Positions 21,472-24,005 of a DNA stretch of 24,005 nt are shown here, one piece after another. How positions within the stretch are numbered: position 1 is the first letter of the stretch; each line of letters begins with the position of its first letter. The notes under the pieces are model-generated. The model saw nothing but the letters and a program-made list of their open reading frames with translations, was not told the origin of the DNA and did no database searches. Location of the stretch: the IMG/VR virus record IMGVR_UViG_3300020470_002255, positions 1 to 24,005 of that record; one strand, given 5' to 3'. The stretch comes from a virus. The position numbers and the translations under genes are program-made.

Positions 21472-21500
21472 TTTTTTATACCTGAAAAAATATTTTAATA

Positions 21501-21581
21501 CTAATAATATATAGCTCTCGCTTTTGGTTCGTTGTAGGTTAGGGACTTAGCGCTTTTTATAACCGCCATCATCGCATCCAT
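21501..21581 (-). CDS. Possible short gene, uncertain start (26 aa or longer)
   Basis: From the ATG at 21579-21581 the product is MDAMMAVIKSAKSLTYNEPK then ARAIYY. The same frame is open upstream to about 21649 and reads gene-like (NEQLICVSYAYLMDAMM), but there is no in-frame ATG or GTG and no ribosome site at 21581. A strong Shine-Dalgarno (AAGGGAGG) with an ATG six bases on is present at about 21640, but in a different frame that stops after five codons. It may be a frameshifted or decayed gene, or a leader peptide. Confidence 0.3.
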   Translation of the reverse strand: MDAMMAVIKSAKSLTYNEPKARAIYY

Positions 21582-21627
21582 AAGATAAGCATAAGAAACG
21601 CAAATTAACTGCTCATTTGCTACACAT

Positions 21628-21656
21628 AGTCTACCATATTGCCTCCCTTATGTCAA
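21628..21656 (-). promoter_or_regulatory. Sigma70-type promoter for the accessory operon
   Basis: On the minus strand a perfect TTGACA (21651-21656) is 17 nt from TAGACT (21628-21633). It begins nine bases after the T-run of the terminator at 21666-21691, as expected for a fresh transcription unit running into the genes from 21471 downward. A TGTAGCAAA motif (21616-21624) overlaps the predicted start. Confidence 0.65.
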
Positions 21657-21665
21657 GCAAACATG

Positions 21666-21691
21666 AAAAAAGGGTTAGTGTTACCTAACCC
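21666..21691 (-). terminator. Intrinsic terminator after the 61-residue gene
   Basis: On the minus strand GGGTTAG pairs perfectly with CTAACCC around a 6-nt loop, followed by six T. It starts 10 nt after the stop at 21702. Confidence 0.85.
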
Positions 21692-21701
21692 CTGTAATAT
21701 C

Positions 21702-21887
21702 TCATAAAAGTGTAGCGAACTTGGAGTTAATCTTACCCCTATTTGTGTTAGTTCGTGTTCCTTTGGTTTGTGTTAACCAGAGATCAGATTTGCGAGGTTT
21801 GCTGCTCGGTAATCTGATATATTTGATCTTGTTTTGTGTATCCAAGATCTCAAGATCTAGTCTTGAAAGTGTAGCAAACTCAGACAT
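21702..21887 (-). CDS. Small basic protein of unknown function (61 aa)
   Basis: The start is placed at the ATG at 21885-21887, which has AGG seven bases upstream; a longer frame from 21983 would run through an extended hairpin and is less likely. The product begins MSEFATLSRLDLEILDTQNK and has a basic, Thr/Lys/Arg/Asn-rich C-terminal half (RKSDLWLTQTKGTRTNTNRG), suggesting nucleic-acid contact. The sequence FATL occurs at both ends of the protein, each coinciding with a TGTAGCRAA motif on the opposite strand. A terminator follows directly. A TTTTCCACA box ends seven bases before the start codon. Overlapping plus-strand frames lack ribosome sites. Confidence 0.6.
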   Translation of the reverse strand: MSEFATLSRLDLEILDTQNKIKYIRLPSSKPRKSDLWLTQTKGTRTNTNRGKINSKFATLL

Positions 21888-21927
21888 AATAACCTGTGGA
21901 AAAGTGTTAACGAAGAGAGGAGAGATT

Positions 21928-21970
21928 GTCGTCCTTAAGTTGCTCGAATGATGACGAGGATTAGGACGAC
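21928..21970. other. Stem-loop between two small genes
   Basis: GTCGTCCT (21928-21935) and AGGACGAC (21963-21970) form a perfect 8-bp stem with a 27-nt loop that contains a further CTCG/CGAG pair. No T-run follows on either strand, so it is not a standard terminator. It lies seven bases after the stop of the 116-residue gene, and could stabilise or process its mRNA. Confidence 0.6.
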
Positions 21971-21976
21971 ATTTGC

Positions 21977-22327
21977 TTAACAAACCTCAAGACGATTGCC
22001 ATGGTCAATTAATACCATACCGTCAAAGAATGACTCTGTTTGGTTATACATTTGCACGAACCAATTCCAATTCTTTTGGAATACTTTCGCACCGTACATA
22101 ACCTCACTAAGTAAAGCATTGAGACGGGATTTTGTGGTTACTGTTTCATAACCACAAGACGAGATCTTAACCGCATTAGTGTTATGATCTACAGTAGCAA
22201 TTTGGTGACCATGTAGCGAAATAGTGGAACAATTTGTGGAGTCGTTGTAGCAAACTGTTGTGTTTGATTTGCTCCAATTAGTGCGGTTAATTACTGCACT
22301 GTTCATTGCTCTTTCGATTTTACGCAT
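21977..22327 (-). CDS. Conserved phage protein of unknown function (116 aa)
   Basis: The product begins MRKIERAMNSAVINRTNWSK. It continues with a beta-rich middle (VYLHGH-like ISLHGHQIATVDH), the block TTKSRLNALLSEV, and a C-terminal FQKNWNWFVQMYN. The pattern M-R-K-I-E-x2-M-N ... L-H-G-x2-I-A ... T-K-S-R-L-N-A-L ... F-Q-K-N-x2-W matches a small protein I recall from many cyanophages, both T4-like and T7-like; its function is unknown to me. AAGGAC lies five bases before the ATG. A near-consensus promoter is 25 nt upstream, so this is probably an early gene. Confidence 0.85.
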   Translation of the reverse strand: MRKIERAMNSAVINRTNWSKSNTTVCYNDSTNCSTISLHGHQIATVDHNTNAVKISSCGYETVTTKSRLNALLSEVMYGAKVFQKNWNWFVQMYNQTESFFDGMVLIDHGNRLEVC

Positions 22328-22352
22328 TTAAGTCCTTTGTTGTTACTTTCTT

Positions 22353-22380
22353 ATTATAATCCCTCAGACGACGTTATCAA
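22353..22380 (-). promoter_or_regulatory. Strong sigma70-type promoter for the 116-residue gene
   Basis: On the minus strand TTGATA (22375-22380) and a perfect TATAAT (22353-22358) are 16 nt apart. Predicted start is near 22346, giving a leader of about 18 nt with AAGGAC. The promoter overlaps the 3' end of the 34-residue gene. Confidence 0.78.
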
Positions 22381-22458
22381 CCAGTCTTGTGACACTTTTC
22401 TCACTGTCCACTCTAAATGTAGCAAATTCCCCTCTGATTGTCTTATGTAAATTTTCAT
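22354..22458 (-). CDS. Very small protein (34 aa)
   Basis: The frame starts MKIYIRQSEGNLLHLEWTVR and ends SSEGL. An AAGGGA ribosome site lies four bases before the ATG. Composition is gene-like (two Trp, balanced charge, alternating hydrophobic residues suggestive of a beta sheet). It overlaps the promoter of the next gene. Its function is unknown and its small size means it could be chance. Confidence 0.5.
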   Translation of the reverse strand: MKIYIRQSEGNLLHLEWTVRKVSQDWLITSSEGL

Positions 22459-22466
22459 GAATTCCC

Positions 22467-22495
22467 TTGCTATTTCAGAGGATTTGTGTTATAAT
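22467..22495 (+). promoter_or_regulatory. Plus-strand sigma70-type promoter
   Basis: TTGCTA (22467-22472) is 17 nt from a perfect TATAAT (22490-22495). A start near 22502 would fall three bases before the hairpin at 22505-22547. It is the only supported promoter in the window that faces against all genes. Confidence 0.6.
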
Positions 22496-22501
22496 GCGCC
22501 C

Positions 22502-22575
22502 CAAGATAACGACTCTGAGAGCACTTAATTAACTCTTAATCGTTATCGAGATAGAGCACACTTATACGTTTTTTT
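22502..22575 (+). ncRNA. Candidate small RNA with 5' hairpin
   Basis: The expected transcript from the plus-strand promoter begins with GATAACGA...TCGTTATC (8-bp perfect stem, 27-nt loop with inner GAGAG/CTCTT pairing at 22517-22537). A 21-nt linker and seven T (22569-22575) follow. No gene in this orientation is downstream. The T-run is too far from the hairpin for a classic terminator, so the 3' end is uncertain. Confidence 0.35.
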
Positions 22576-22641
22576 AACCCTTTTTAAATATAACTAATTC
22601 ATCATAAGTTATCCACAGTTTGAGCAACTTTATGTGGAAAA
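22569..22641. other. AT-rich tract with paired DnaA-box-like sites (origin-like)
   Basis: An A/T tract (22569-22610) contains an imperfect 19-bp palindrome (22592-22610). It runs into TTATCCACA (22609-22617) and, 15 nt on and in opposite orientation, TTTTCCACA on the minus strand (22633-22641). TTATCCACA is the bacterial DnaA-box consensus; TTTTCCACA is, as I recall, the box reported at the Synechococcus origin. The arrangement resembles an unwinding element flanked by initiator sites. Confidence 0.45.
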
Positions 22642-22842: not shown

Positions 22843-22975
22843 AGTCTTGTGGAAAATCAATAACAAACCCATCATAATATTGTTGTTCTTCAATATCATC
22901 AGGGTCAGTTAATCGTTCAATAAAATGTTTAGTATCTTCGACAATCTTCATGTCGGTTTGCTTTACTTTATCCAT
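22832..22975 (-). CDS. Small acidic protein (47 aa)
   Basis: The ATG at 22973-22975 overlaps the stop of the 74-residue gene by 8 nt (ATGGATAA), and GAGG lies 8 nt upstream. The product is MDKVKQTDMKIVEDTKHFIE followed by RLTDPDDIEEQQYYDGF and ends DFPQDYDP. It is strongly acidic with a helical start. It ends within the start of the 70-residue gene (overlapping ATGATCCCTAA). This nested chain is typical of phage operons. Function unknown. Confidence 0.65.
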   Translation of the reverse strand: MDKVKQTDMKIVEDTKHFIERLTDPDDIEEQQYYDGFVIDFPQDYDP

Positions 22976-23736: not shown

Positions 23737-23952
23737 TTAAGAATACATTTCTAAATCTTCCATAACTCGATGTAGCGCAGAGAGACAATCTACGATATCA
23801 ACTTTATAATCAGTGTGTTCAATTACATTGTAGAACTTTGTATAAAGTCGGTAAAAATCATCTCCCTCAGTAACACTACGATCCTCCATTTCAAATGGTA
23901 GATCATTAAGAACTGTTTGAAGTTCTTTAACACTTAGTTTGGTTGATTGCAT
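23737..23952 (-). CDS. Small protein of unknown function (71 aa)
   Basis: The product begins MQSTKLSVKELQTVLNDLPF and is helical and acidic (EMEDRSVTEGDDFYRLYTKFY), with a C-terminal helix (IVDCLSALHRVMEDLEMYS). The start codon overlaps the last base of a TTTTCCACA box, so the leader reads TTTTCCACATG and has no Shine-Dalgarno. A perfect terminator follows. Its promoter would lie at or beyond the right edge. No homologue is recognised. Confidence 0.62.
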   Translation of the reverse strand: MQSTKLSVKELQTVLNDLPFEMEDRSVTEGDDFYRLYTKFYNVIEHTDYKVDIVDCLSALHRVMEDLEMYS

Positions 23953-24005
23953 GTGGAAAATGATAATAAAGGACGATTAATAAAGAAAGATATGTATCAT
24001 TTACT

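Follow-up and report, generated by a model that had tools for sequence, protein, structure and literature searches.

The 24,005-base viral contig analysed here (G000, called the window below) comes from the genome of a T4-like cyanomyovirus (Kyanoviridae) near S-SSM7, of which it is a fragment, and the best DNA-level matches of its right part are the Synechococcus phages S-SSM7 and S-SSM6a. Its recognised genes all lie on the minus strand, with the baseplate genes gp25 and gp6 to the left of the locus described here, whose features are collected in Table 1. The small basic protein encoded there matched no Pfam or PHROG family; members of its family, recognisable by the invariant motif, are also present in Sf-FS3 and S-SCSM2R. 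Among the neighbouring open reading frames no Rep or initiator family was recognised in Pfam or PHROGs, and an Rfam search of the region gave no credible family.

Table 1. Features of the gp96 locus in the window
Feature	Position	Strand	Remarks
TTYGCTACA-family box, intergenic	21616..21624	-	just past the -10 of promoter 21656-21628; operator-like position
Predicted sigma-70-type promoter of the downstream operon, TTGACA-N17-TAGACT	21628..21656	-	
Intrinsic-terminator-like hairpin	21670..21693	-	after the small gene
Gene for a small basic protein, 61 aa	21702..21887	-	conserved; invariant TKGxRTNTNR
Motif copy at the C-terminus of the small gene	21711..21719	+	encodes F-A-T-L; residues A-T-L kept in relatives
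Motif copy at the 5' end of the small gene	21870..21878	+	encodes F-A-T-L; same frame as 21711
DnaA box TTTTCCACA	21895..21903	-	survivor of a direct pair
Kyano_Gp96 gene (gp96)	21977..22327	-	function unknown; PF23790, phrog_554
Motif copy in gp96	22212..22220	+	coding S-L-H-G
Motif copy in gp96	22246..22254	+	coding C-Y-N
Predicted gp96 promoter, TTGATA-N16-TATAAT	22353..22380	-	
Intergenic box	22418..22426	+	gene strand reads TTTGCTACATTTAG, near the array consensus TTTGCTACATWTAA
Predicted divergent sigma-70-type promoter, TTGCTA-N17-TATAAT	22467..22495	+	toward the DnaA pair and opposite in direction to every neighbouring gene
AT-rich tract adjoining the DnaA pair	22565..22608		candidate unwinding element
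DnaA box TTATCCACA, arm of inverted pair	22609..22617	+	
DnaA box TTTTCCACA, other arm of inverted pair	22633..22641	-	24 bp start to start
Further DnaA box TTTTCCACA	22848..22856	-	
Outlying DnaA box TTTTCCACA	23952..23960	-	

The divergent promoter is kept in ten relatives, including S-SSM7. Between 22467 and 22600 (plus strand) a conserved AAAGAGATAGAGCACAC block comes after this promoter; no gene is evident there, and any transcript may be a non-coding or primer RNA. The gp96 promoter of the window is closely preceded by a TGTGNCA-type inverted repeat (22383-22410), a possible operator that has the same place at L001:5430-5470, in S-SSM7 and in several relatives. Other lineages carry different repeats near gp96, namely the iterated palindrome ATCTCGWCGAGA, which lies partly in promoter spacers (L072:2824-3040, L076:1561-1790), and CTACGAGATTT (L051:1530-1600, L060:1360-1430); both are probably repressor operators. 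On the other side of the small gene, at 21499-21618 (minus strand), is a non-coding element with core CCTAACCTACAA at 21532-21543 and the pattern TTATAAAAA..ACT(A/T)CCCTAACCTACAAMG. This element (the 21532 element) was found at 35 sites in the loci read, among them S-SSM7, Sf-FS3, P-SSM7 and S-RSM4, and also in S-RIM8; it lies upstream of the next operon across cyanomyoviruses and matches no Rfam family. In P-SSM7 a direct pair of DnaA boxes comes directly after it.

The TTYGCTACA box in the window and its relatives

The motif TGTAGCRAA (TTYGCTACA when read on the other strand) occurs in six exact copies at this locus, five on the plus strand and one on the minus strand, as the first-pass annotation had reported, and it is found nowhere else in the 24 kb. 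The chance expectation was put there at less than 0.1; dinucleotide shuffles give 0.32 for the whole window, which is slightly more, while the excess itself stands, none of 100 such shuffles having six copies. As a correction for the motif having been chosen after the sequence was seen, copies were also counted for whichever 9-mer, allowed a single R/Y position, is most frequent in any 820 bp: the real sequence has 6 copies, a number that none of 200 block-wise dinucleotide shuffles reaches (their maximum, 5, was reached in two). The same annotation held that the copies fall in different reading frames and in non-coding DNA and that codon usage does not explain them. This is right only in part, since two real genes contain four of the six copies. 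Two of these four, at 21711 and 21870, are 159 bp apart, share a frame and encode the same four residues; only the copies at 21616 and 22418 are intergenic. The spacing of the six is irregular, with no regular series of direct repeats.

In related genomes the box is found in quite different numbers. Across 163 related loci (1.13 Mb) there are 91 boxes, very unevenly distributed, compared with 12 matches to the reversed pattern; in a few loci, such as L122 and L149, the copies are coding repeats. Two syntenic sister lineages, L019 and L043, share the gene order of the window, but the intergenic stretch that follows the small gene measures 899 bp in L019 and 687 bp in L043, as against 161 bp in the window, and it contains 11 and 8 copies, respectively, of TTTGCTACA, all on a single strand. 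These arrays lie between the counterpart of the terminator hairpin and the 21532 element. Successive copies in L019 are 35, 36, 70 or 142 bp apart (58 at one edge), and the steps in L043 are similar; Tandem Repeats Finder reports periods of 36 and 70. TWTAA comes after most copies, and on the gene strand the extended form of the box in the sister arrays is TTTGCTACATWTAA. A third metagenome yielded L184, which also has the array and is near-identical to L019 over their overlap. The amplification of the box at 35/36/70-bp spacing in L019 and L043 marks it as a true iterated element. The same intergenic region has two copies in L004 and one each in L007 and L008, and there is none in that region of L005, L006, L009 and L010. 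An array scan of all viral contigs gave 31 matches, of which only L165 (= L043), L177 (= L019) and L184 are this element; most of the 31 are unrelated coding or tandem repeats, and in the viral collection scanned the array was not found outside this small clade. No cultured phage is known to carry it. The similarity of S-B43 to the array region is due to a shared terminator-like stretch and not to the box. As read from these sequences, then, the TTYGCTACA box is an iterated element, varies in copy number and is confined to a small clade. The earlier description of the pattern as iteron-like is thus borne out by the L019 and L043 arrays, with their period of about 35 bp and their place beside DnaA boxes, themselves conserved and characteristic of the locus. 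It holds less well elsewhere: the absence of the motif from orthologous loci with conserved coding sequences had been named as evidence against it, and in part this is what was found, as many such loci retain the genes and have no motif, which makes the box a lineage-specific element.

The box also stands in two relationships to other signals. It resembles the DnaA box, as TTTGCTACA and TTTTCCACA are identical at 7 of 9 positions, so that it could be a weak DnaA-type site; the exact repetition of TTTGCTACA suggests, however, a separate binding protein. A composite, TTTGCTACATTTTCCACAG, in which the box is fused head to tail with a DnaA box, is present in L004, L019 and L043 alone among the viral contigs. 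The second relationship is with promoters, and here the operator alternative raised in the first-pass annotation gains ground. The copy at 21616 lies directly past the -10 of the operon promoter, a position that is kept in L004 and L007 (both TGTAGCAAA) and is occupied by degenerate versions in L009 (AGCAGCAAA), L019 (TATAGCAAA) and L043. About 20 nt past the -10 of the divergent promoter, L009, L010, L019 and L043 have TTCGCTACATTTA, and L004, L007 and L008 have the degenerate TTTGCTACCTTTA; S-SSM7 has TTCGCTTCATTTAA slightly further downstream, and the window has lost the box at this promoter. These positions at two promoters support a putative operator role for the box, alone or together with an iteron role.

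DnaA boxes in cyanophages and cyanobacteria

In cyanobacteria the 9-mer TTTTCCACA serves as the DnaA box (PMC4674748), and the AT-rich tract and DnaA-like pair that had been noticed near the TGTAGCRAA copies are both real. TTTTCCACA is also the top 9-mer in an unsupervised enrichment, with 126 occurrences in 206 kb of gp96 neighbourhood (36 loci) versus 26 in 267 kb outside. In most relatives it is confined to the locus (for example, all 5 copies on a contig of 70.8 kb lie within 328 bp, and all 4 on one of 81.5 kb within 617 bp), and the probability of such clustering on a single contig is often <0.001 under a uniform model. Exceptions to this confinement or clustering are G010, G011, G028, P-TIM68 and the cluster-free phages listed below. 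The window is marginal, its cluster being weaker than those of its relatives (three exact TTTTCCACA in 1.3 kb, P ~0.03 by itself, plus TTATCCACA). The boxes keep a constant arrangement, in which the two starts of an inverted pair are separated by 23-24 bp and AT-rich DNA comes next. There is a direct pair as well, with boxes 21-22 bp apart in L004, L007, L009, L019 and L043 and 21 bp apart in L012, L016 and P-SSM7; one box of this pair is missing from the window, where only 21895-21903 remains.

A pattern scan of viral contigs for the inverted pair found it in at least 120. Among the matches listed, the gap is N14 in 64, N15 in 45, N12 in 10 and N13 in 2 (109 of 121 are N14 or N15), and 98 of 119 loci among the matches listed carry either the 21532 element or marker genes that cyanomyoviruses have in this neighbourhood. 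The cultured phages Syn9 (dyad at 52565-52597), S-RIM8 (about 41.7 kb), S-RIM50 and P-SSM7 have the inverted pair, and in these four and the window it lies 5.0-6.2 kb upstream of gp6. S-PM2, Syn1 and S-SM1 have related DnaA-box clusters with other spacings. No cluster of exact boxes was found in S-SSM7, Sf-FS3, P-SSM2, P-SSM4, P-TIM40, P-RSM6 or S-RSM4, so that an origin of DnaA-box type would not be common to the whole family.

Of 291 cyanobacterial genomes, 186 contain the direct-pair geometry of the phages, TTTTCCACA-N12-TTTTCCACA, and none contains the reversed-pattern control. In 14 of 15 Prochlorococcus-sized genomes there are no exact box pairs within 30 bp; some genomes of this size have, next to dnaN, boxes of the TTTCCACA type together with a CTA repeat, so the match to the host is close there and not exact. 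A scan of bacterial genomes for a triple TTTTCCACA was not specific, the matches listed coming from mixed taxa.

A candidate origin of replication

The iteron array, the TTTGCTACATTTTCCACAG composite, the enrichment of TTTTCCACA, the inverted pair upstream of gp6 and a place on the map like that of T4 oriE together make this locus a candidate origin. We think the chances roughly even that the region between gp96 and gp25/gp6 is a replication-control region, most likely an origin, of T4-like cyanomyoviruses. Against this are the cultured phages that have no cluster of exact boxes, the fact that the array is known from two lineages only, the lack of a recognised initiator gene nearby, and the absence from the window of one direct-pair box and of the TTYGCTACA box at the divergent promoter. 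The GC skew of P-SSM7 gave no origin signal, being monotonic and tracking the gene strand.

From the sequences, clustering, geometry, conservation and position of these elements we infer binding, opening, initiation and regulation as follows. The conserved core would be the inverted pair of host-type DnaA boxes beside the AT-rich tract, with an opposite-strand promoter running toward the pair. Host DnaA would bind the dyad and help to melt the AT-rich tract, and a transcript started at the conserved divergent promoter may assist in this or serve as primer. TTYGCTACA, in its extended form TTTGCTACATWTAA, would be a second, lineage-specific putative binding site, apparently amplified in L019 and L043 to an iteron array with a period of about 35 bp, and reduced in the window to two intergenic copies plus four in-gene look-alikes. 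A putative protein, probably phage-encoded, would bind this box and act on the origin and on the two flanking promoters, and in this way could couple origin activity to transcription as plasmid initiators do on iterons and operators. In its full form this proposal, a dedicated origin that recruits host DnaA through the box dyad, with an iteron array for a phage initiator in some lineages, and hence a plasmid- or P1-like arrangement within a lytic T4-type genome, is put forward only tentatively.

The origins of iteron plasmids and of P1 type combine iterons, DnaA boxes and an AT-rich opener, with a period of about 20 bp. All three element types occur in one locus in L019 and L043, and in the window the DnaA boxes and AT-rich tract are in the same locus as the TTYGCTACA boxes; the direct repeats are regular in L019, L043 and L184 and irregular in the window. 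The cyanophage locus differs from such origins in its period of about 35 bp, in having no recognised Rep gene, and in lying in a lytic T4-like genome. Within T4 itself, oriE is the positional analogue of the locus, being found a short way upstream of gene 6 (1.7 kb, compared with 5-6 kb here). Its iterons are 12 nt long and evenly spaced, and their role is unproven (PMC3016281). Evenly spaced direct repeats (here in the sister contigs only) and small genes round about are common to both; oriE is also transcribed against the neighbouring genes, for which the conserved divergent predicted promoter would be a possible counterpart here. Unlike T4, where the review cited mentions no link of the 12-nt repeats to DnaA, the locus described here has a 9-bp box at about 35 bp together with host DnaA boxes, and no relative of repEA or repEB was recognised. 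Cyanobacterial oriC, with its boxes near dnaN (PMC4674748), has the identical box TTTTCCACA and the 21-bp direct pair of the window's relatives; it differs in that the phage locus has neither dnaN nor dnaA, the N14-N15 inverted pair is dominant, and the window has one box of the direct pair. A search of open-access full text, judged by titles and abstracts, returned no paper that links cyanomyoviruses to DnaA boxes at an origin. The only earlier cyanophage origin literature found is a prediction of a single theta origin in Syn9, known to us as it is cited in PMC2984593, and Syn9 carries its DnaA dyad in the syntenic region upstream of gp6.

Several other explanations were weighed. The motif count in the window may be a coincidence, in which the four coding copies follow from protein sequence and only the two intergenic boxes are real. 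The coding copies do specify F-A-T-L twice, S-L-H-G and C-Y-N in proteins that are mostly conserved, the gp96 residues being common to relatives; the part of the small protein encoded at the 21870 copy is not conserved at all. This explanation, which we regard as possible and not as the probable one, leaves the intergenic copies unexplained, and the outcome of the 200 shuffles and the independent arrays in L019 and L043 speak against it. The box could instead be an operator family at the start sites of the operon and divergent promoters, with the array regulatory or titrating and no role in replication. Its exact or degenerate presence at both promoters, and the iterated palindrome ATCTCGWCGAGA that other lineages have in the same neighbourhood, would fit such a family, but 8-11 even, one-strand copies between terminator and promoter exceed the needs of simple repression, the box is non-palindromic, and in three contigs it is fused to a DnaA box; we consider this account unlikely. 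T4 middle promoters have a MotA box with the consensus WWTGCTTYA, which TTTGCTACA matches at 8 of 9 positions, a resemblance of sequence alone. A TANNNT -10 hexamer at the required 11-13 bp follows just 2 of the 11 copies in L019 and 3 of the 8 in L043, in DNA that is very AT-rich. No MotCF match was found, though the control search was silent too, and cyanomyoviruses are reported to be without motA (PMC2984593); MotA-like middle promoters are thus largely excluded by -10 spacing and literature, and are a highly improbable reading of the array.

The DnaA boxes admit a different reading as well, that they titrate or regulate, either by soaking up host DnaA and so stopping host initiation or by making DnaA a transcription factor for early genes. 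They flank promoters, have the host consensus sequence, and keep their geometry at a variable distance from gp96 and on either side of it, which speaks for this reading. It seems to us rather improbable, however, as there are just 3-5 boxes per genome, and the fixed spacing of the dyad, the AT-rich tract and the conserved antisense promoter are more like an origin.

T4-like cyanophages are very abundant viruses of the ocean. The presence of the dyad at a fixed place in Syn9, S-RIM8, S-RIM50 and P-SSM7 makes the question of how their replication starts directly testable. If the locus is indeed an origin, viral replication would be linked to the host initiator DnaA, and the dyad would be a landmark by which an active infection could be recognised in metagenomic coverage.
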